Shown piece by piece: positions 3,813 through 47,970 of a stretch of 64,000 nt of DNA (its first letter is position 1; each line of letters starts with the position of its first letter). The stretch covers positions 62,001 through 126,000 of the forward strand of contig NZ_RJKE01000001.1 of assembly GCF_003751225.1 (NCBI RefSeq). The letters run 5' to 3'. The notes beneath the pieces are model-generated. The model did no database searches, was not told the DNA's origin, and saw only the letters and a list, made by a program, of their open reading frames with translations. Source of the DNA: Actinocorallia herbida. Its GTDB lineage: Bacteria; Actinomycetota; Actinomycetes; Streptosporangiales; Streptosporangiaceae. The translations under genes were made by a program, and so were the position numbers.

Positions 3813-5492
3813 TCACGCGGTGGCCAGGGTCTCCCACGGCCAGGAGGCGTTCCTACCTGCCTCCAGAAGCGGCAGCGCCCGGAACGTCGCGTCCGTCAGG
3901 CCGCCGAGCTCGTGCCGGGTACCGGTGCCGGACGGGATCGCCCCGTACCGGTAGCCGACCAGGTTGAAGCCGTACATCGGGACGTGCGCCGGGGCGGCGT
4001 CGCTGGCGTTCCCGGCGAAGCCGCCGTTGAAGGTCTGCATGTCCGAGAAGATCACGATCCGGTCGTGACCTCGGTAGGTGCTCCGGACCGCGCTGGCGAT
4101 CTGGGTGCCGTGCCCGACCTCGCCGACCCTGCGGACGAACCGGTCGACCTCCGACAGAACCGAGCCGCCGCGGCGGACCTCGTGCCTGAAGACGCCGTCA
4201 GCGAACCCGTGCAGGTCCACCGAAGCGCCCCGCATCGTCAGCGCCACGCCGAACAGCGCGGCCGCCTGGACGTAGTTCATCTCCGAGCGCTCCGACACCC
4301 GGTATTCCATCGACGATGACGTGTCGACCAGGACCAGGGTCCGGCCGGGCAGGCTCGGGATGTGTTGGGTGGAGAAGCTGAGCGCCTTGTCGAGCGCATG
4401 CCCCCACCGCAGCGACGGGGCAGCCTGGTATGCCTGCCACCAGCGGAACGGGAACATCCGCGAGCTGGCGATGACGTCCGGGTCGGCGAACTTCGCGCAC
4501 ACCTGCTCGGCGACCTCGTCGGACACGCCGACCTGGTCGAAGTTCCGCAGGTTCCTCGCGAGCGCCATGACGCCCATGGACGGGATGACGGCCTCCCACG
4601 CGGCGGCGTCCATCGGCCCCTCAAGCCACCCGGCGAGCGCCTCCCAGGTGATGCCCGCGGCCGCCAGTCGCTGAGATCCGTCGGCCTTCAGGAGGAGCTT
4701 GCGCCGCTTCTTGTGCGGCACGGCGAGGAACTCGGCGCGGGCACGCAGCATCCCGAGCCGCTCGGAGATCGGCTCGTGCGGGTTCTGGCGGCGGTCGATC
4801 GCGTGGGAGAACAGGGCGGCCCGGTGCGCGGTCTCCTCGGCGATGTAGGCGAGGACGTCGTCTTCGCTCATCGCGGCGAGCTGCTCGGCGGGCAGCCGAT
4901 CGAGCAGGTCCGGGCGCGGGGTCGGGCGGGCGTGCACGAGCTCCAGGACGTCGGCGAACCGGACCTTGTTGTCGCGGGAGTCCCACTTGATGAGGGACCG
5001 TTCGGTGTAGACGCGGCGGATGGCGTCGCTGATGCCGCGCTTGACCGGGATGGGCATGCTGCGGCCGTAGCGGGACTGCCAGTAGGCGATGGCCTCGCCG
5101 GGCTCGTCGCCACGCTGGATCGCGGCGTCGATGAGCTGCCGGTTGCCCTCACGGATGCCCGCGGTGACTCGGGCTCGGATCGCTTCGAGGGCGGCGACGA
5201 GGGCGGCGGAGCGGATGTTGCCGTCGCCGCGGAGCCAGGTCACGAAGTCGAGCATCCATGCGCCGTCGTCGAGGGCGACCATGTGGACGAGCTTGCGGAA
5301 CCGGTCGGCGCGGTCGCCCTTCGGCTCGTAGAAGGACTTCTCGTCGGTGAGGGAGGCGGCGGCGAGGAGGAACAGTTCGCCCTTGGCGTCGCGTTCGAAG
5401 CCGGGGCCGCCTTCGTGGGTGAGGGCGGGGCCGGTGGTGGTGATGGGGGAGCTGGCGGCCGGGCGGAGGCCGGCGGTGTTGTACTTGCCCAA
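3813..5492 (-). CDS. rsr: TROVE-domain RNA-binding protein, Ro60/Rsr orthologue
   Basis: About 559 residues. An N-terminal TROVE (HEAT-like ring) region covers roughly residues 20-340; the C-terminal third is a von Willebrand A domain with an intact MIDAS (LVLVDTSSSME, later HGTQIAS and VIFSDMQTF). Family knowledge: Ro60/Rsr rings bind misfolded RNAs in the central hole and Y RNAs on the outside; bacterial Rsr works with exonucleases in RNA turnover and is often linked to rtcBA. I start at TTG 5492: its GAGGAAGG site is well spaced, whereas an open frame from GTG 5531 would begin inside a terminator-like hairpin. Three Y-RNA-like elements lie directly upstream on the same strand, which supports the identity. 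About 35 residues longer than the 520-540 typical of the family. Confidence 0.93.
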   Translation of the reverse strand: MGKYNTAGLRPAASSPITTTGPALTHEGGPGFERDAKGELFLLAAASLTDEKSFYEPKGDRADRFRKLVHMVALDDGAWMLDFVTWLRGDGNIRSAALVAALEAIRARVTAGIREGNRQLIDAAIQRGDEPGEAIAYWQSRYGRSMPIPVKRGISDAIRRVYTERSLIKWDSRDNKVRFADVLELVHARPTPRPDLLDRLPAEQLAAMSEDDVLAYIAEETAHRAALFSHAIDRRQNPHEPISERLGMLRARAEFLAVPHKKRRKLLLKADGSQRLAAAGITWEALAGWLEGPMDAAAWEAVIPSMGVMALARNLRNFDQVGVSDEVAEQVCAKFADPDVIASSRMFPFRWWQAYQAAPSLRWGHALDKALSFSTQHIPSLPGRTLVLVDTSSSMEYRVSERSEMNYVQAAALFGVALTMRGASVDLHGFADGVFRHEVRRGGSVLSEVDRFVRRVGEVGHGTQIASAVRSTYRGHDRIVIFSDMQTFNGGFAGNASDAAPAHVPMYGFNLVGYRYGAIPSGTGTRHELGGLTDATFRALPLLEAGRNASWPWETLATA

Positions 5493-5499
5493 CGTAAAA

Positions 5500-5531
5500 G
5501 TGCCTTCCTCGGGAGTGGGGGAGGAAGGCAC
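5500..5531 (-). terminator. Hairpin with T-run overlapping the rsr ribosome-binding site
   Basis: Perfect 11-bp stem: minus strand GTGCCTTCCTC (5531-5521) with GAGGAAGGCAC (5510-5500), followed by TTTT. It can end the Y-RNA transcript. Its 3' arm contains the GAGGAAGG ribosome-binding site of rsr, so when folded it would also block rsr translation. Confidence 0.65.
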
Positions 5532-5544
5532 GGGATGTCACGGA

Positions 5545-5691
5545 GGGGCGCCCGAGTTCAGGAGTCGGCGGCGGGGGACTGTACGCGCTCTAACCGCTGA
5601 GCTACTCCGACCGTTGGCCGGAGCCGGGATTTGAACCCGGGACCTCGTCTCCCCAAGAGAAGTACCCGTCGCCTAGCGCAGCGGGCGCCCC
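5545..5691 (-). ncRNA. Y-RNA-like RNA 1 with permuted tRNA-Pro(UGG)-like module
   Basis: Terminal stem: GGGGCGCCCG (5691-5682) with CGGGCGCCCC (5554-5545). Next are an asymmetric internal loop (CTGCGCTA opposite GACTCCTGAACT), helix 2 (GGCGACGG opposite CCGCCGCC), then a tRNA in permuted order. The order is anticodon arm with loop CTTGGGG (anticodon TGG, 5655-5653), variable loop AGGTC, T arm CCGGG-TTCAAAT-CCCGG, acceptor 3' strand CTCCGGC (5623-5617), a short linker, acceptor 5' strand GTCGGAG (5611-5605), TA, and D arm GCTC-AGCGGTTA-GAGC (5602-5587). All seven acceptor pairs form (one G-U). Bacterial Y RNAs of the YrlA class are known tRNA mimics that bind Rsr; the rsr gene follows at once. 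CCA is not encoded. Confidence 0.82.
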
Positions 5692-5705
5692 TTCTCGCGT
5701 GTGCT

Positions 5706-5795
5706 TCCTCCCGAGTTCAAGGGTGACGGCGGGGCTTTGTGGTCCGAGGTGTGAGCTCGGATTGTGAAGTATCCGTCGTCGGCGCAGCGGGAGGA
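5706..5795 (-). ncRNA. Y-RNA-like RNA 2, short form without tRNA module
   Basis: It has the same frame as its neighbours: terminal stem TCCTCCCG (5795-5788) with CGGGAGGA (5713-5706), internal loop CTGCGCC opposite ACCCTTGAACT, and helix 2 GACGACGG (5780-5773) opposite CCGCCGTC (5732-5725). The insert is reduced to about 40 nt holding one hairpin, CCGAG-CTCACAC-CTCGG (5760-5744). It shows that the Ro-binding-type stem is conserved apart from the tRNA module. Confidence 0.65.
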
Positions 5796-5813
5796 GTTAT
5801 GAATTTGTGGTTT

Positions 5814-5866
5814 AGCAGGGCCCCCTGCCCGACAGGATTTGACGCCGAGTCGGCAGGGGGTCCTGC
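5814..5866 (-). ncRNA. Long hairpin between Y-RNA-like units 2 and 3
   Basis: AGCAGG (5814-5819) pairs with CCTGCT (5861-5866); inside that GCCCCCTGCC pairs with GGCAGGGGGT (one G-U) and CGA with TCG, leaving a loop that contains GGATTTGACG. The stem is about 18 bp. There is no T-run, so it is more likely a processing or structural element, or a decayed RNA unit, than a terminator. Confidence 0.45.
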
Positions 5867-5867
5867 T

Positions 5868-6016
5868 CATGTGCCTGAGTTCAAGGTCGGCTGCGGTGTA
5901 CGTAGGCGCTCTGCCAATTGAGCTACTGGCCGCAAAATATTGGCCAGGCGGGATTCGAACCCGCAACTCCCTCATTAACAGTGAGAAGTAACCGCGGCCT
6001 GCGCAGCAGGCACATG
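5868..6016 (-). ncRNA. Y-RNA-like RNA 3 with permuted tRNA-Asn(GUU)-like module
   Basis: Terminal stem CATGTGCCTG (6016-6007) with CAGGCACATG (5877-5868), perfect 10 bp. Internal loop CTGCGCA opposite GACCTTGAACT; helix 2 GGCCGCGG opposite CCGCAGCC. The tRNA module is permuted: self-contained anticodon hairpin CTCA-CTGTTAA-TGAG (anticodon GTT, 5979-5977), variable loop GAGTT, T arm GCGGG-TTCGAAT-CCCGC, acceptor 3' CTGGCCA (5947-5941), AT-rich linker, acceptor 5' CGGCCAG (5932-5926; six of seven pairs, first is C-A), TA, and D arm GCTC-AATTGGCA-GAGC. First RNA of the array in the transcription direction. Confidence 0.82.
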
Positions 6017-6168: not shown

Positions 6169-6519
6169 TCATGTTTCAGTGAGCCACTCGCGACGGAAGT
6201 CCAGCCGGCCCGCATACGGCGACGCGAGGATCCGCAGCAGCTCGCCGCGGAGCTCACGTGCGCCGCAGTCGTCACCGCGGGAGCCCTCGATGTTGACCGC
6301 GAAGTCCTCCAGCCCCGTCCAGACCTCATCAACCACCCGCCGGCGTGCTTGCACGTCGGCGAGGAGTCGCCCCGATGGGATGGCGATGGTGTTGTGCTGG
6401 TAGTCGTCGTCCAGGATGTACACGTCGATGCCCTCGTCCTCGCCAGCCGCGTGCGCGAGTCGCTCCTCTTCGGCGTACCGGTCTTTGAGATAGGCCAGGA
6501 TCTCGATCTCGTGCGTCAT
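6169..6519 (-). CDS. DUF6221-like small actinobacterial/phage protein
   Basis: 116 residues from ATG 6519 (MTHEIEILAYLKDRYAEEER). It has the pattern of the DUF6221-type family as I recall it: an N-terminal IxxYLKDRYAEEE helix, a middle RRRVVDEV helix and a C-terminal LASPYAGRLDFRREW box. The start overlaps the stop of 6516-7151 by ATGA, so translation is coupled. Function unknown; such proteins are common in actinophages. Confidence 0.7.
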   Translation of the reverse strand: MTHEIEILAYLKDRYAEEERLAHAAGEDEGIDVYILDDDYQHNTIAIPSGRLLADVQARRRVVDEVWTGLEDFAVNIEGSRGDDCGARELRGELLRILASPYAGRLDFRREWLTET

Positions 6520-7151
6520 GGGGCCCACTCTCTCCGGTAACCGGGGTGACCGGCGTGCACCGCGGCGAGAACCTTGAGGATCTGTGGTGGTTCGGGCTGG
6601 CGCACCTGGTCGGCGGGGCGTCTCCGTCGCCAGTAGGACTCCTCGGTGTAGTCGAAGCGTTCCCAGCCGTCCCGGCCCTGCTCGACGTTCCGTACCCAGC
6701 CCTCACCCTCGGGCGGGACGTTGTAGTCGTGGAACGCCTTCCGCTGTCCTGCCGTGCTCCGGTACTCCCACTCGGGATGACGGCCGCGGGCGTGTAGTTC
6801 AGCGTCGGGCACGGGCTTGAGGGGCTCGGGCGTGTACATCTCCAGGATCGCCCGCCATGCCTCCACCTCACGCAGCACGTGGGCGGGGTCATGCAGGGCA
6901 GCGTGCGGGCCGAACGCGCCGACGCCGCTGCCCCATGGGCCGACGGCGATGTAGCCGGAGCCGGCTGCGTCGGCTTCCCGAACGGAGTCCGTGTCTCCGT
7001 CCCAGGCCCCTCCGCATTCCTGCGCGGCGGCCAAGGCAAGGCGCTCCGCCTCGTTGAGGCGGGCGGCGAGGAATGCCTCGATCGTCAGATGCGCGTCGCG
7101 CGGTTCTCGCACCGCAGGACCGTCATCTGATGCTTCGTGCTTGGAGATCAT
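6516..7151 (-). CDS. DUF6221-like protein, longer paralogue
   Basis: 211 residues. LTIEAFLAARLNEAERLA at residues 22-39 and LAAVHAGHPGYRREWAP at the C-terminus match the start and end boxes of the downstream gene, so the two are paralogues; this one has an extra Trp/Gly-rich middle of about 100 residues. It is the first gene of a two-gene coupled unit. Role unknown. Confidence 0.65.
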   Translation of the reverse strand: MISKHEASDDGPAVREPRDAHLTIEAFLAARLNEAERLALAAAQECGGAWDGDTDSVREADAAGSGYIAVGPWGSGVGAFGPHAALHDPAHVLREVEAWRAILEMYTPEPLKPVPDAELHARGRHPEWEYRSTAGQRKAFHDYNVPPEGEGWVRNVEQGRDGWERFDYTEESYWRRRRPADQVRQPEPPQILKVLAAVHAGHPGYRREWAP

Positions 7152-10564: not shown

Positions 10565-11111
10565 GCGGCACCTCGATCCGGTGGAGCTCGTCCAGGACGA
10601 CGAGGTGCGGCAGGCTCTCGATCTTGGCGATCGTCCGGGTGATGTCGAGCGTCCGCTCCGGATAGTCCTCGTAGGTGGCATCTAGAAGAACGCACACCTC
10701 CCGGGTCATGTGCCGGTCGGCGTGTGGCGCCCAGAACTCCGCGCGGTGCCGCGGGTGGTCCGCGGACTTCCGCCATCCGAGCTGGGTGAGGTACCCGGTC
10801 AGCGCCTCGGGGCGGATGCCAGCGGCGGCGCGTAGGTCCGTCACCCGGGTGTTCAGCTCCCGGGCCCAGTCGGGCAGTCCCGGCGTGTTGGCGGCGGTGA
10901 GGCGGTATCCGGCCGGGCCGAGCGCGCGGAGCGCCAGGCGGGCGATCACGTCGGCCTCGCCGCCGGACAACATGATCTCGTCGGAGGCGAGGAGCGATGC
11001 AACCGCGTTCGGCCCGGGTCGGACACGGAAGTGCTGGCGGATCTCCGCGGCGACCGCGTCGATCAGATCGTTGGAGTGCATGGGCGGGCGGGGCTTCGGC
11101 GCCGACATCAT
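10554..11111 (-). CDS. Hypothetical protein of the RNA-repair cluster
   Basis: 185 residues, coupled to the nucleotidyltransferase gene by ATGA and overlapping the phosphoesterase start by 11 bp. N-terminal half helical (NDLIDAVAAEIRQHF, LSGGEADVIARLAL); residues about 95-140 (ALTGYLTQLGWRKSADHPRHRAEFWAPHADR) are basic and His/Trp-rich; the C-terminus ends in a DITRTIAKIESLPHLVVLDEL helix. No family recognised. Its fixed position suggests it works with its two neighbours. Confidence 0.6.
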   Translation of the reverse strand: MMSAPKPRPPMHSNDLIDAVAAEIRQHFRVRPGPNAVASLLASDEIMLSGGEADVIARLALRALGPAGYRLTAANTPGLPDWARELNTRVTDLRAAAGIRPEALTGYLTQLGWRKSADHPRHRAEFWAPHADRHMTREVCVLLDATYEDYPERTLDITRTIAKIESLPHLVVLDELHRIEVPRDV

Positions 11112-12007
11112 GACGTCCTCGTCTCTACGGTGGGGCGGGGCGGGGTGTAGTGGGCGGCGCGGACGTCGTGCAGCCAGGCCTCGACTGCGGCCCGGTCGGG
11201 ATGATCGGGCAGCGGGGTGCGGGTGGCGTCGAAGTCTGCTTCGGCCCGGACGAGGAGGGTCTGAGTGGCGCCGAGATCACCGTTGGCGACCTGCTCCCCG
11301 AAGGCGTGGTACCAGTCCGGGTCCGCAAGCCTGATCGTCAGGCTGCCGGTTCGGTACAGCTCCAGGCCTTGGTGGATGAGGCGCGCCAGGTGGCGGGCGT
11401 GCTTGGCGGTCCGCTTTCGGGTATCGGCGCTGAAGCTGCCGTCGCCACGCGCTTCGAGGCGGTGGAACTGGCTGGCGGCGTAGCCGAGGTAGGCGCTACG
11501 GACGGCCTTCGCGGACAGGAACGCGCCGCGCAGCTCCAGGAGTTGGTCGCCGAGCGGCGTGCGGGTCTCGTAGTCATCGAGCCAGAGGAGTTCGGTGACG
11601 GTCGGGTTCATCTGGAGGACGAGGGCGGCGTACTTGCCGGCCTCGTGCAGCGTGATGTCCTCGGTCGCGCCGGTGGTGACGCGGGAGGCGTTCTTCCCGA
11701 CGGGAGGGTTCAGCCCGTGGAAGGCGATGGTGGGGGTGGCGTAGACGCCGAGCTGGTCGACGTCGCTGCCGGGGAGGGCGAGGCCGTAGGCGGTGGAGCC
11801 GACAATCCCGGACAGCAGGACACTGTCGCTGCGCACCTCAGTGAGCCGGGAACCGAGAGTCTCCTCTCCCCGGGTGACGAGGACGAAGCAGTCGGGACGG
11901 TCGGGTGAGTTGGGGTGGCAGACGGGCTGTCCCTGGCCGAGCCTTCCCCACCCTCCGGCAGGGTCTCCGCACTGGCGGCCGCAGTGCGCGCAGGTGTTCG
12001 CGGTCAT
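11108..12007 (-). CDS. Predicted nucleotidyltransferase, COG3541 (YcgL) type
   Basis: 299 residues. An N-terminal Cys cluster (CAHCGRQC) is followed by the pol-beta-superfamily motif GSTAYGLALPGSDVDQLG (residues 70-87: GS then DxD) and conserved downstream TELLWLDDYETRT and YLGYAASQFHRL helices typical of COG3541. The family is predicted to transfer a nucleotide; the physiological substrate is not settled as far as I know. It starts 2 bp after the stop of rtcB, implying one transcript and probably a shared RNA-end or tRNA substrate. Confidence 0.85.
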   Translation of the reverse strand: MTANTCAHCGRQCGDPAGGWGRLGQGQPVCHPNSPDRPDCFVLVTRGEETLGSRLTEVRSDSVLLSGIVGSTAYGLALPGSDVDQLGVYATPTIAFHGLNPPVGKNASRVTTGATEDITLHEAGKYAALVLQMNPTVTELLWLDDYETRTPLGDQLLELRGAFLSAKAVRSAYLGYAASQFHRLEARGDGSFSADTRKRTAKHARHLARLIHQGLELYRTGSLTIRLADPDWYHAFGEQVANGDLGATQTLLVRAEADFDATRTPLPDHPDRAAVEAWLHDVRAAHYTPPRPTVETRTS

Positions 12008-12009
12008 GG

Positions 12010-13167
12010 TCAGCCCTTGTAGTTGAAGATTTGGTGGAGGGTGTGCAGCACCTCGACGAGGTCGCGCTGGTCGGCCATGACCTGGTCAATGTCCTTGTAC
12101 GCGGCGGGGTGCTCGTCGACGAGCTGCTCGGCCCGGTCGTCGTTCCACACCCGGGCGCCCATGACGTGGCGGAGCGAGGACGCGCCGAGGCTGATCCGGG
12201 CGTGGGTGCGGGACATGCGGCGGCCGGCCCCGTGCGAGCAGGAGTTGTAGGAGGCGGGGTTGCCGCGGCCGCGGACGATGTAGGAGCGGGTACCCATCGA
12301 GCCGGGGATCACCCCGAGATCGCCCTGGGCGGCCTTGATGGCGCCTTTGCGGGTGATCCACAGGTTCCGGCCGTGGTGGTTCTCCTGCTGGGTGAAGTTG
12401 TGGTGGCAGTTGATCACCTGGACAACGCGGCCCCCGCCGACGACCTCGAACAGGGCGGCGTTCAGCTGGATCGCCATCGCCTCACGGGAGGCCATGGCGT
12501 ACTGCTGGGCCCACAGCATGTCGGCGATGTAGGCGTTGAACACCTCGTCGCCTTGGACGAGGTAGGCGAGGTCAGGGTCCTCCAGCTCGATGAAGTACCG
12601 CTTCATCAGCCCCTTCGCCTCGCCGATGTGGCGCTTGGCGAGCTGGTTGCCGATGCCGCGGGAGCCGGAGTGCAGGACGGTCCAGACCGTGCTGTGCTCG
12701 TCGAGGCAGACCTCGACGAAGTGGTTGCCGGAGCCGAGCGTGCCGAACTGCGTGGTGGTCGTGCGGAGCTGCTTCATGGTCAGGTCGGTGTGCGGCAGGC
12801 CGAGGTCGGCCATCCCGGCGAGGGCCTGGTCCTCCGCGGCGTGGCCCTTGCCGACGCCGGCGGGGATCCGCTCCTCCACGAGGGGCATGAGGTGGGCGAG
12901 GGTGTCGGGGAGGTCGGAGGCGGTGAGGGTCGTCTCGGTGGCGATCATTCCGCAGCCGATATCGACGCCGACTGCGGCGGGGATGATCGCGCCCTGGGTC
13001 GGGATGACGGAGCCGACGGTGGCGCCGATGCCGACGTGCGCGTCGGGCATGAGCGCGACATGGGACGGGACGAAGGGGAGGCGGGCGGCGCGGGCGGCCT
13101 GCTCGATGGTGCCGGGTTCGATGTCGCTGGCCCAGGACAGGATGCCGGGGGCGGGCTGGTTGGGCAT
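12010..13167 (-). CDS. rtcB: RNA-splicing ligase RtcB
   Basis: 385 residues from ATG 13167 (TGAGGAGCACC upstream). Diagnostic motifs in order: HVGIGATVGSVIP, GVDIGCGM (metal-binding Cys), GSGNHFVEV, HSGSRGIGNQ, NCHHNF, GSMGTRSYIV and SHGAGRRMSR (the His that is guanylylated). RtcB joins 2',3'-cyclic-phosphate or 3'-phosphate RNA ends to 5'-OH ends using GTP. Length is at the short end of the family. In Salmonella, rsr, Y RNAs and rtcBA form one RNA-repair operon; here rsr, Y RNAs and rtcB sit within 10 kb on the same strand. No rtcA or archease gene is seen in the window. Confidence 0.96.
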   Translation of the reverse strand: MPNQPAPGILSWASDIEPGTIEQAARAARLPFVPSHVALMPDAHVGIGATVGSVIPTQGAIIPAAVGVDIGCGMIATETTLTASDLPDTLAHLMPLVEERIPAGVGKGHAAEDQALAGMADLGLPHTDLTMKQLRTTTTQFGTLGSGNHFVEVCLDEHSTVWTVLHSGSRGIGNQLAKRHIGEAKGLMKRYFIELEDPDLAYLVQGDEVFNAYIADMLWAQQYAMASREAMAIQLNAALFEVVGGGRVVQVINCHHNFTQQENHHGRNLWITRKGAIKAAQGDLGVIPGSMGTRSYIVRGRGNPASYNSCSHGAGRRMSRTHARISLGASSLRHVMGARVWNDDRAEQLVDEHPAAYKDIDQVMADQRDLVEVLHTLHQIFNYKG

Positions 13168-13175
13168 GGTGCTCC

Positions 13176-13268
13176 TCAGGTGAAGGGGGCGTCGTAGAAG
13201 TCGAGGCCGTCGGCCTCGAAAGCGGTGTCGTCGTTCGGGCCGCGTAGGAAGCTGGGGTTCGTGCCCAT
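13176..13268 (-). CDS. 30-residue coupled peptide upstream of rtcB
   Basis: MGTNPSFLRGPNDDTAFEAD..., ATG overlapping the upstream stop (TGATG) and ending 8 bp before the rtcB start. Acidic with aromatic residues at the C-terminus. It may be a true small protein or a translational coupler for rtcB. Confidence 0.4.
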   Translation of the reverse strand: MGTNPSFLRGPNDDTAFEADGLDFYDAPFT

Positions 13269-14293
13269 CACGCATCGCCCTGAGGCGTGGGTCGGACGCG
13301 CTCCCACCTGGAGGTTCCGACGTTCCACGCGTGGGAGCCGAGGTGGCGGATCAGGTCCGGCAGCGTCAGGAGGTCGGCCATTGCTGCGAGGCCGTCGAGG
13401 GCGATGGTCGGCACCTTGCGGCAGGGCGGGGGGCCGCCGGCATAGGCGATGGGGACGACCACCGGGACGCTCTTGTCGAGCTGCTCGCGTTCGGCGGGCG
13501 TGGCCGGGGCGTACAGGTCGTCGACCTCGGCGAGGAACAGCGCCATGTCCGACCAGTCCCGCCCCTTCCGACGCTCAGCCAGCGCGGCGACCAGGATCAC
13601 CAGGCTGGTGGTGTCGAATGCGTGACGCTCGGCGTGGACGGCCGTGGGGTGCTGAGGAGAGAACCGCGCCGATGTGTCCGGCTCGCGATGGCATTCGTGC
13701 TCGCAGGGCCCGCCGACGCACGAGCTGCACTTGCCGTCGCGGCAGTCCGGATCGAGCAGCGGCTCGCCCGCAGGGGAGGCCGCGCGCACGAGCTCGGCGA
13801 CACTAGCCGAGACCCGCCCCTCCGCCACGGCCTGGCGGACGTAGGCTTCCTGCTCCTCCGGGGATCGCAGCACCACGGCGACGGGCTCGGGGCGGTGCAG
13901 GAACGTCACGTTCTCACAGATCAGGATCGTGACAGCCTTCGACGGAGGGCCCTGCTCCTTGCGATGGAACGCGCGGGAATCACGAGTCGGCTGAATCCGG
14001 ATCCGCCACTCCAGCGGGACAGACCGCTCCACCTCCTCCCGGATCGCGTAGCCCCGCTCGTTCAGCAGGACGCTTCCGTCTGCGTCCACCACGACTTCGG
14101 ACACGGACTCTGTAGGCAGCACGGCGCCCTCGACGTACCGCTTCCACTCGTATTCCGAGCGGTAGGCCTGCCAGATGTCCAGCACGGTGCCTTCGGTGAT
14201 CTGGCAGGACCGGCCCGCGCTGCTCGGGTAAAGGACGGTGTCGCCGACCTCGACGCGGTTGCCGCGCCAGTCGATGAACTCCGGGGTGCTCAC
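13268..14293 (-). CDS. Hypothetical protein with Cys cluster
   Basis: 341 residues. N-terminal small beta domain (RGNRVEVGDTVLYPSSAG, SH3/KOW-like in look) over residues 8-60, beta-rich middle, then a Cys-rich patch near residues 180-200 (CRDGKCSSCVGGPCEHEC) probably binding zinc, and a helical C-terminal third ending TSRWERVRPT. Coupled to the gene above by ATGA. No family recognised. Confidence 0.6.
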   Translation of the reverse strand: MSTPEFIDWRGNRVEVGDTVLYPSSAGRSCQITEGTVLDIWQAYRSEYEWKRYVEGAVLPTESVSEVVVDADGSVLLNERGYAIREEVERSVPLEWRIRIQPTRDSRAFHRKEQGPPSKAVTILICENVTFLHRPEPVAVVLRSPEEQEAYVRQAVAEGRVSASVAELVRAASPAGEPLLDPDCRDGKCSSCVGGPCEHECHREPDTSARFSPQHPTAVHAERHAFDTTSLVILVAALAERRKGRDWSDMALFLAEVDDLYAPATPAEREQLDKSVPVVVPIAYAGGPPPCRKVPTIALDGLAAMADLLTLPDLIRHLGSHAWNVGTSRWERVRPTPQGDA

Positions 14294-46166: not shown

Positions 46167-46672
46167 ATGATCGACGCGGCCATCAACGCTCCGGACGGGA
46201 AGCCACGTGGGGGCGTCATCCTGGCTCACGGGATCACGGTCGACCGGGACGAGGGCGGGATGTTCGTCCGGCTCGCCGAGAGGTCGGCGGGTGCGGGTTT
46301 CGGGGTGCTGAGGTTCTCGTACCGGGGGCATGGCGAGAGCAGTGGGGCCCAGGAAGGCATGACCATTGTGGGCGAGATGCTCGACCTTCAGGCCGCGGTC
46401 GCTGTCGCGCGGACGGAGTTCGAAGGCCCGTTGTCTCTCGTGGCTGCGAGCTTCGGCGCGGTCTCCAGCCGCGTTCGCCGCCTTACCTGGAGGGTCGGCT
46501 TTCGCGCTTGGTCTTGTGGAGTCCGGTGCTCGATCTCGTCCGGACCTTCGTCGAGCCGGAGCTTCCCCGGGGAGTGGAGAAGTTCGGGCCCGAGGCGCAG
46601 GCGGCGCTGAACGATCGCGGCCACCTGCTCGTGGACGACGAGTTCAAGCTCGGCCGGGTCCTGTGGGGGTGA
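46167..46672 (+). pseudogene. Frameshifted, truncated alpha/beta hydrolase
   Basis: The first frame reads GGVILAHGITVDRDEGGMFV ... FSYRGHGESSG ... LVAASFGAVS (nucleophile-elbow region), then turns into Arg/Ser-rich nonsense near 46,470. The sensible continuation (YLEGRLSRLVLWSPVLDLVR ... LLVDDEFKLGRVLWG) is in another frame and stops at 46,672, well short of the catalytic His. So it has one indel around 46,465-46,480 and a lost C-terminus. Its end overlaps the convergent P450 gene by 29 bp. Confidence 0.75.
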
Positions 46673-47870
46673 GGAGGACGGGCATGTGGCGGAGGCCGGT
46701 GTGCTTGTTGGTGCGGGTGAAGGTGGGTGGGGCGGTGGGGGTGAGGGCGGTGATGTGGGTGAGGAACGAGGTGAGGAGGGCGTGGAGCTCCAGGCGGGCC
46801 AGGGGGGCGCCCAGGCAGAAGTGGGGGCCTCGGCCGAAGGCGAGGTGGGGGTTGGGGGTGCGGGTGATGTCGAAGGTGTGGGGGGCGGGGAAGACGGAAG
46901 GGTCGCGGTTGGCGGAGGCCCACCAGAGGGTGATCTTGTCGCCGGGGGAGAGCGCCGCGCCGTTGAGGGTGGTGGGGCGGGTGACGGTACGGCGGTTGTA
47001 GGGGGTGGTGGAGGTCCAGCGGAGGATCTCCTCGATGGCGGAGGGCAGTAGCGAAGGGTCGGCCTTGAGGGCGTGCCAGGCGGACGGATGGTCGATGAGG
47101 GCCTGGACGCCGAGGGCGAAGGTGTTGCGGGTGGTCTCGCTGCCGGCCGCGATGAGGAGGTGGAACAGCATCTGCTGCTCCAGTTCGGTCAGGGGGCCGC
47201 CGTCGACGGTGCCGTGGACGGCGACGGAGAGCAGGTCGTCGCCCGGGTCCGCGCGCTTGCGGGCGAGGAGCGCGGTGCCGTAGGCGGACATCTCGGCGGC
47301 CGCGGCGCGGGTGCGCTCGGTGGACTCGCCGAGGTCGCGGTCGGCGTGGTCGAGGGTGGTGTTCGCCCAGGCGAGGAGGCGGTGGCGGTCCTCCTGGGGC
47401 ACACCGAGAAGGTGGGCGACGGCCTGAAGGGGGAGTTCGGCGGCGACGTCCACGAGGAGGTCGCACTCGCCCTTGGCCACGGCGGCCCTGACGATCCCGT
47501 CAGCGCGCGCTTGGAGATCGTCCCGGAGGGCGTGCAAGGCGCGCGGGGAAAGGCAGGGGGCGAGGAGGCGGCGGAAGCGGGTGTGCCTGGGCGCGTCCAT
47601 CATGTTGAGCAGGACGCCCGCCGCGAAGCCCGCCGGGAGGTCCTCGATGAGGGTGCCGCCCCCGGCGCGGCCGCCTCCGCCCGCGGAGGAGAACACCGCG
47701 GGATCGCTCGCGGCCGCCAGGACGTCGGCGTACCGGGTGACGACCCAGAACCCTTCCCCGCCGGGCGTGTGCTCTGTGGGCTCGTGCCAGACGACGGGGC
47801 CGCCGCGCAACTCGTCGAAGAGGGGGTGGGGGAAGCCGTCCGCGAACAGGTCGAGGTCCGTCAGGTCCAT
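46644..47870 (-). CDS. Cytochrome P450
   Basis: About 408 residues from ATG 47870. I-helix HLLIAAGSETTRNTFALG (oxygen-binding Ser/Glu-Thr), ExxR in IEEILRWTS, and heme loop FGRGPHFCLGAPLARLEL. N-terminus has LDLFADGFPHPLFDELR, typical of soluble actinobacterial class I P450s (CYP107/125-like in look). Substrate unknown. The next gene is an independent oxygenase 100 bp upstream, same strand. Confidence 0.92.
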   Translation of the reverse strand: MDLTDLDLFADGFPHPLFDELRGGPVVWHEPTEHTPGGEGFWVVTRYADVLAAASDPAVFSSAGGGGRAGGGTLIEDLPAGFAAGVLLNMMDAPRHTRFRRLLAPCLSPRALHALRDDLQARADGIVRAAVAKGECDLLVDVAAELPLQAVAHLLGVPQEDRHRLLAWANTTLDHADRDLGESTERTRAAAAEMSAYGTALLARKRADPGDDLLSVAVHGTVDGGPLTELEQQMLFHLLIAAGSETTRNTFALGVQALIDHPSAWHALKADPSLLPSAIEEILRWTSTTPYNRRTVTRPTTLNGAALSPGDKITLWWASANRDPSVFPAPHTFDITRTPNPHLAFGRGPHFCLGAPLARLELHALLTSFLTHITALTPTAPPTFTRTNKHTGLRHMPVLLTPTGPGRA

Positions 47871-47970
47871 GCCGCGACCCTCGCACGGAGCGATCACCCG
47901 TTCAAGGCACTCGGACGCCTGCCGGTGCCGCCCGCATCCGGTCGAGCTGCTCCTCCACGGACCCTGCCGG

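Follow-up and report, generated by a model that had tools for sequence, protein, structure and literature searches.

Upstream of the rsr gene in the genome analysed here lies an array of three small RNAs that is best read, from its sequence, as a set of Rsr-associated Y RNAs of the YrlA kind in a topology not found in Rfam. Two of the three would carry heads that mimic a whole tRNA, opened between positions 28 and 29, with the frame of the anticodon loop kept and the triplet left free. We give this reading a probability of roughly 0.72. The view of the array as a tRNA mimic rests on the 28:42 base pair, on counts of modules with five anticodon-stem pairs and on loop statistics; we infer both the expression and the function of the RNAs.

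A tandem Y RNA array upstream of rsr

The window, the whole stretch of DNA analysed, comprises 64,000 nucleotides (bases 62001-126000 of a single-contig genome of 9.8 Mb). Units 1, 2 and 3 follow one another in tandem on its minus strand, succeeded by a terminator-like hairpin and then by rsr (Table 1). The preliminary description of three tandem Y RNA units beside an Rsr gene was exact in its coordinates. The RNA strand is the minus strand and the array stands directly upstream of the Rsr/TROVE gene, the position expected of bacterial Y RNAs. Two adjacent DUF6221 genes occupy window positions 6169-7151, upstream of the array, and a cytochrome P450 gene lies at 46644-47897.

Table 1 Features of the array and its surroundings (window coordinates)
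Feature	Position	Strand	Basis
Y RNA unit 1: 10-bp terminal stem, internal loop, upper helix, complete permuted Asn(GUU)-type module opened at 28/29	5868..6016	-	covariance model R1, 118 bits (unit 1 in training set)
Unit 1 tRNA module: T29-A31 (5984-5982), loop CTGTTAA, T39-G43, variable region, T arm (5964-5948), acceptor strands, D arm to 5908, positions 26-28 (5907-5905)	5905..5984	-	sequence reading and segmentation
Long hairpin between units 1 and 2, not a Y unit	5815..5866	-	MFE -35.7 kcal/mol for 5866-5812
Y RNA unit 2: 8-bp terminal stem, like internal loop and upper helix, short hairpin replacing the tRNA module	5706..5795	-	sequence reading
Y RNA unit 3: 10-bp terminal stem, permuted Pro(UGG)-type module opened at 28/29	5545..5691	-	covariance model R1, 94 bits (unit 3 in training set)
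Terminator-like hairpin followed by TTTT, separating array from rsr	5496..5531	-	sequence reading
rsr, TROVE/vWA protein	3813..5492	-	Pfam PF05731 E=4e-12; PDB relatives 9kop, 9l5y E=5e-25
RlaP-like RNA-repair nucleotidyltransferase	11108..12007	-	Pfam PF10127 E=1.1e-17
RtcB RNA ligase, about 6 kb upstream of the array, same strand	12010..13275	-	Pfam PF01139 E=7.4e-108

The rsr product combines TROVE and vWA domains, as Rsr proteins do. The Pfam TROVE match is above its cut-off but spans residues 309-374 only, PDB TROVE proteins match across residues 295-560, and VWA_2 (E=9.9e-5) falls under its cut-off. Translation likely starts at the TTG at 5492, judging by the hairpin and by the start in relatives; the hairpin itself holds the GTG that the ORF lister takes as the start. 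A terminator-like site likewise precedes rsr in one phage (L009). A promoter and terminator consensus scan of the array returned nothing; as it requires at least five T, it did not report the hairpin between array and rsr.

The element in the window is likely a prophage, because an identical rsr product (100% over 572 residues) occurs in an 87.8-kb viral contig of IMG/VR and because genes for a Gp3-like recombination directionality factor, a phage-type helicase/primase, an exonuclease and an SSB lie near the array. The same element encodes RtcB and RlaP. In the available flanks of 95 related loci RtcB was found twice and RlaP once, so that these neighbours lend weak support to any function.

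The terminal stem of unit 1 pairs 6016-6007 with 5877-5868 over 10 bp, with an 11th pair possible; that of unit 3 pairs 5691-5682 with 5554-5545, also over 10 bp. Unit 2, from which the tRNA is absent, has an 8-bp stem (5795-5788 with 5713-5706). These lengths bear out the preliminary description, and the covariation it saw in the stems extends to helices across relatives. It had given the internal loop as CTGCGC / CYTTGAACT: the 5' side is indeed CTGCGC in all three units, while the 3' side follows that form in units 1 and 2 (CCTTGAACT) and departs from it in unit 3 (TCCTGAACT). Aligned units of relatives read TGCGCA (39 of 55) or TGCGAA (10 of 55) on the 5' side. Above the loop, the proposed 8-bp helix was recovered with at least eight pairs and one mismatch in each unit, read as C.A at the fourth pair in unit 1 and A.C at the fifth in units 2 and 3. 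The array thus has the basal stem, conserved internal loop and upper helix of a Y RNA.

Permuted tRNA heads of units 1 and 3

In units 1 and 3 the T arm and the 3' acceptor strand come before the 5' acceptor strand and the D arm, which is the permuted tRNA-like head of the YrlA kind. Six of seven acceptor pairs form in unit 1 and seven of seven, one of them G-U, in unit 3, in agreement with the initial claim of two complete circularly permuted tRNAs with 6-7 acceptor pairs. As segmented, the loops closing the acceptors are 8 and 5 nt long. After the D arm, unit 1 continues with C27 C28 and has T29 C30 A31, the loop CTGTTAA, T39 G40 A41 G42 G43 and the variable region GAGTT elsewhere in the module; the corresponding elements of unit 3 are C27 G28, TCT, CTTGGGG, AGACG and AGGTC.

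Drawn with the opening at 28/29, all ten anticodon-stem pairs of the two units are Watson-Crick. Each module reaches five of five pairs in this form, compared with four and three of five in a test for heads opened in the anticodon loop, as the Rfam consensus is; the window modules are not of that loop-opened type. ARAGORN called the de-permuted modules as Asn(gtt) for unit 1 and Pro(tgg) for unit 3, recovering both anticodons read at the outset, whereas the unaltered window yielded no tRNA call. The idea that UGG of unit 3 belongs to a mere Y RNA loop was dropped in view of the five Watson-Crick stem pairs.

Where the cloverleaf is opened

Two sets of relatives were examined. Mechanical segmentation of 72 stretches (60 from the host's family, 11 from phages or plasmids, and the window) gave 96 permuted modules, spread over 61 of them. 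The second set, from the genome_contigs loci among those listed, gave 110 modules in 68 of 80 loci, 96 of them new after removal of 14 already seen. A pair-by-pair test used those modules with a spacer of 21-22 nt in which each of the three inner pairs forms, 47 of 67 from the first set and 47 of 53 from the second; the third nucleotide after the D arm was taken as position 28.

Position 28 forms a Watson-Crick pair with position 42 in 47/47 modules of the first set and 46/47 of the second, against means of 0.52 and 0.70 when partners are swapped. The pair changes identity: T-A 31, C-G 13, G-C 2 and A-T 1 in the first set, C-G 38 and T-A 8 in the second. The adjacent 27:43 is Watson-Crick in 47/47 of the second set (swap mean 0.69); in the first it is so in 45/47, which does not exceed the swap control (mean 0.88, maximum 0.96). 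Positions 39-41 supply local partners for 29-31. Since 28:42, and in the second set 27:43, covaries with the nucleotides after the D arm and 29-31 pair locally, we conclude from these sequences that the break in the tRNA lies within the anticodon stem, between 28 and 29, and that the Y stem is inserted there.

This topology gives five of five stem pairs in 61/96 modules of the first set and 50/96 of the second (swap means 0.28 and 0.29). Among these five-pair modules the pairs are all Watson-Crick in 56/61 and 47/50, and the variable region has 4-5 nt in 60/61 and 49/50; the other 81 of 192 modules do not reach five pairs in this form. Classic loop-opened heads are present as well, with five of five pairs across the opening in 21/96 and 26/96 modules (3.4% and 6.1% on swapping); ten of them also score as local hairpins. 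One head of each kind occurs in 4/61 and 8/61 loci, and 30 of the 192 modules fit neither form (a local hairpin with at least four of five pairs, or loop-opened with five of five). Eight modules of the second set, with spacers of 29-32 nt, were counted as the local-hairpin type; most combine a Leu-like D arm with a long variable arm, and they are probably loop-opened.

Our first topology placed the junction at 26/27 and drew a local anticodon hairpin that includes the constant T-T of TACTTC, which can yield solely U-A, U-G or no pair. It was replaced after the comparison with loop-opened heads and the pair-by-pair count. De-permuted at 26/27, the units give the anticodons GUU and GGG in ARAGORN. 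The structure of the covariance model, the D-arm classes, the comparison of unit 1 with single host tRNAs, the host-tRNA comparison (0.72) and the local-hairpin counts were built on this drawing. The two drawings of the anticodon stem may compete, because the local hairpin with T-T pairs too (91.2% of cells; in the second set T28:42 pairs or wobbles in 47/47).

In an alignment of 55 units (A2), a 35-pair structure is paired in 95.8% of cells, against at most 50.0% when slid, and 23 pairs are changed on both sides. The rows had been picked for pairing in the hairpin and the T, acceptor and D arms, which inflates the cell counts, so that the slide and swap controls carry more weight than the raw percentage. 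The RNAalifold consensus recovers the Y stem and the T, acceptor and D helices and leaves out the anticodon hairpin. U8, A14, G18G19, A58 and C61 are present in 55/55 aligned units, whose selection partly used position 8 and fully used G10 and U54-C56.

After de-permutation ARAGORN calls a tRNA in 61/61 and 50/50 five-pair modules, with the anticodon matching our register in 60 and 50; left permuted, 25/61 and 10/50 are called. Shuffling the whole sequence abolishes the calls (0/610 and 0/500), whereas shuffling only positions 29-43 leaves 486/610 and 438/500. ARAGORN therefore testifies to the body of the tRNA and not to its anticodon arm, and after this control it was dropped as proof of the latter.

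The anticodon loop frame is kept and the triplet is free

In the five-pair modules of the two sets, U33 is found in 58/61 and 47/50, a purine at position 37 in 59 and 46, and A38 in 58 and 47. The full frame Y32 U33 R37 A38 is present in 52/61 and 41/50, compared with 7/85 units that lack a module, scored at a fixed offset. Unit 1 matches the frame completely; unit 3 matches it at C32, U33 and G37 but carries G at position 38. The same modules show 24 and 16 triplet forms.

Compared pairwise, 27 orthologous units from Streptomyces differ by 0.43 at position 34, by 0.44 at position 35 and by 0.14 at 37, and not at all at 32, 33, 36 and 38. As a control, 172 four-fold columns of the adjoining Streptomyces rsr have a median difference of 0.40, and 45% equal or exceed sites 34 and 35 in variability. 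By this comparison, positions 34-35 change at the synonymous rate, so that the triplet is free and not selected for change; diversifying selection on it was considered and is unsupported. Because these sites drift while 33, 36 and 38 are invariant, the RNA keeps the frame of an anticodon loop and not a decoding identity. In five genomes of one genus, closely similar units compared by eye carry GCA, CTC or TTC, and another unit CGG, GGG or TTT. Such drift and such differences within one genus are unlike the behaviour of a decoding tRNA. The stable anticodon identity of a functional permuted tRNA is thus not seen, as judged on 27 Streptomyces orthologues of a unit other than those of the window.

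Distribution of the arrays

Rsr relatives were found in 63 phage records, 44 plasmid records and 66 of 200 genomes of the host's family, and at no fewer than 80 loci in genome_contigs (Streptomyces, Planotetraspora, Planobispora, Nonomuraea, Actinomadura, Lentzea and others). The preliminary description had made its case depend on homologous structured units in related elements, and such units exist at related loci: 59 of 60 upstream stretches of rsr in the family hold one or more units with TGCN...TACTTC, as do, with at least one TACTTC unit, 78 of 80 rsr loci among the genome_contigs matches listed. Two or more units occur at 52/60 family loci, and units with and without a module occur together at 45/60. 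Tandem arrays and short copies without a tRNA, at first thought unusual, are therefore common in the family and not special to the element in the window.

The covariance model R1, whose structure derives from the 26/27 drawing, has three strong matches in the genome studied, two in this array and one at a second rsr locus, all three of which were used to train it. Of 148 genomes sampled from the class, 16 reach a match of at least 75 bits and all 16 also have Rsr, which occurs in 18 of the sample (one a fragment); three or more of the 16 had contributed to the training set. With the threshold at E 0.001 or better some match appears in 120/148 genomes, and the places under 75 bits that were inspected are two tRNA pairs and a DUF7873 place, which leaves the score cut as the sole informative measure. 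The off-locus matches inspected in two Streptomyces-like genomes proved to be ordinary tandem tRNA-Asn genes.

Phage records annotate stretches that lie in Y RNA heads or overlap them as tRNA-Arg(tct) (L010:4716-4787), tRNA-Ser(gct) (L018:4774-4847) and tRNA-Pro(tgg) (L017:4760-4850). Y RNA heads would explain doubtful tRNA calls of this kind, such as the tRNA-Arg of VanLee. In phage BRock (L014:11103-11183), a match of just 81 nt to Rfam tmRNA (RF00023; 64.5 bits) lies among tRNA genes.

Possible role, origin and alternative explanations

In known bacterial Y RNAs the basal stem binds Rsr, the head resembles the D, T and acceptor arms, and DusA and TruB modify the head; in Deinococcus the Y RNA tethers Rsr to PNPase (PMC8394870, PMC4726728). 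By analogy, the basal stem of the present units, with its conserved internal loop, would bind Rsr. The heads of units 1 and 3 copy a whole tRNA and, because the cloverleaf is opened between 28 and 29, the Y stem leaves from the side of the anticodon stem with the anticodon loop displayed intact. Such a head may dock a protein that reads tRNA shape and loop frame rather than codon identity, possibly a processing, modification or decay enzyme, much as the Deinococcus Y RNA tethers PNPase. The tRNA-less unit may serve as a plain Rsr ligand or as a gate, and the heads would be expected neither to be charged nor to decode.

More tentatively, stem-opened Y RNAs could form an undescribed class of tRNA mimic that holds an anticodon loop of conserved frame and free triplet beside the ring-shaped Rsr protein, and through which the ring samples enzymes of the anticodon arm, be they t6A and other modifiers or anticodon nucleases; we regard this extension as possible, at well under even odds. 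Streptomyces heads keep U36-A37-A38, a combination linked with t6A, and its retention points to loop recognition of the t6A type.

A related but less likely explanation is that the RNAs act as decoys or bait for anticodon-loop nucleases, shielding the real tRNAs of a phage-carrying cell. The intact display of the loop would suit a bait, rsr sits among tRNA genes in several phages, RtcB and RlaP are encoded in the window element, and competitive inhibition of a nuclease by YrlA has already been suggested in Salmonella, where YrlA fragments went undetected while tRNAs were cut (PMC7790460). That last observation also tells against a bait, the two repair genes are rare at related loci, and sites 34-35 evolve at the synonymous rate and not faster, so that no arms race over the triplet is visible. 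Far less probable is that the units are permuted tRNA genes maturing into working tRNAs by removal of the Y stem, sealing of 28/29 by RtcB and opening of the acceptor loop. De-permuted modules do pass as tRNAs in ARAGORN and RtcB is at hand in the element, but RtcB is rarely adjacent elsewhere, and the triplets are neutral in Streptomyces orthologues and differ between similar units of one genus. Moreover, the host already has Asn-GUU and Pro-UGG (50/60 tRNA places read). The acceptor-closing loops have 0-12 nt, with CCA at the loop start in 2/61 and 4/50, and the leader and trailer that would permit a 3' CCA end in a functional permuted tRNA were not found.

The origin of the heads is a separate matter. 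The preliminary description proposed repeated capture of different tRNAs, and capture of host tRNAs by a mobile Y RNA element might explain the different anticodons and several D-arm classes, some within one array, as well as the D arm and loop of unit 1, which are identical to those of host Asn-GUU. Recent capture is nevertheless improbable. De-permuted modules share a mean identity of 0.73 with the best host tRNA (n=61), no higher than the 0.72 between host tRNAs and tRNAs of another amino acid (n=53; 50/60 genome tRNA places read), and recent capture is therefore unsupported. In addition, unit 1 resembles tRNAs other than Asn in its acceptor strands, and among Streptomyces orthologues most of the loop and stem is conserved while 34-35 vary. 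The tandem tRNA-Asn pairs of the two Streptomyces-like genomes, which score 69.0 and 57.6 bits with R1 because a 3' half followed by its neighbour's 5' half has the permuted order, offer a plausible ancient source. The bodies fall into a few classes, which we label by their D arms as generic, Glu-like, Gln-like and Leu-like, and this leaves room for a few old origins. A source in tandem tRNA pairs would fit the duplication-and-loss model of permuted tRNA genes, though the available part of that source names no junction at 28/29 (PMC3978253).

The preferred reading, a Y RNA array with heads mimicking whole tRNAs, would separate the needs of a mimic (shape and loop frame) from those of a tRNA (anticodon identity), and makes the question of the head partner of bacterial Y RNAs directly testable.

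Comparison with known systems

At relaxed thresholds, units 1 and 3 have Rfam YrlA (RF02553) as their best match, as a YrlA-like array should (E=4.8e-7 and 1.7e-5), but their scores of 40.9 and 35.6 bits remain under the gathering score of 69. At gathering scores Rfam reports nothing in the window and no YrlA match in 20 related sources, which reveals a blind spot of its YrlA model in these Actinomycetota. Permutation alone is not new, because the RF02553 consensus is itself permuted, with the T arm before the D arm, and the Y RNA of 6CU1 has been superposed on tRNA by circular permutation (PMC11472068). Like YrlA (RF02553; Salmonella structure 6CU1), the array lies beside rsr and has a basal stem and a permuted head in the order T arm, acceptor, D arm. 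However, the classic YrlA head copies the D, T and acceptor arms (PMC8394870) and the fourth stem of the Rfam model closes across the opened anticodon end, whereas the window heads, opened at 28/29, keep the whole anticodon arm. We found no earlier example of the 28/29 form in Rfam or in the available text of the literature searched; Chen 2014, Wang 2018, Sim 2018, Sim 2020 and Burroughs 2016 may hold one.

YrlB is a Y RNA without a tRNA-like head. Unit 2 can be likened in layout to such tRNA-less RNAs by its stem, its internal loop and its headless form beside a tRNA-bearing unit, an arrangement like that of the operon rsr-yrlBA-rtcBA (operon name from PMC7790460).

Permuted tRNA-like RNAs in the order T arm, acceptor, D arm also occur in pairs at DUF7873 loci, but these lie away from the Rsr locus and their anticodon stem is loop-opened. 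A DUF7873 (PF25283) gene is followed by two such RNAs at 4/4 loci (5090231-5090500 of the same genome, equivalent to L271:4732-5001, and L275-L278), with five of five pairs across the opening in 6/8 RNAs and four of five in 2/8 (best of four spacer lengths). DUF7873 is present in 4/60 class genomes; its pairs are off the Rsr locus, yet all four genomes carry Rsr elsewhere. The copy in the genome studied has no Rfam match, and the literature search returned no paper naming DUF7873.

In the permuted tRNA genes of algae and Thermofilum the 3' part likewise precedes the 5' part, and the origin by tandem tRNA duplication proposed for them would fit the window heads too. Their junctions are given as 20/21, 37/38, 50/51 and 59/60, and a permutation point inside the anticodon stem was not found in the available part of that literature (PMC3978253). 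The window heads differ in being opened at 28/29, in being bacterial, in their stable Y stem and in showing no sign of maturation, and would represent a second way of threading a complete tRNA into another RNA, through a permutation point inside the anticodon stem.
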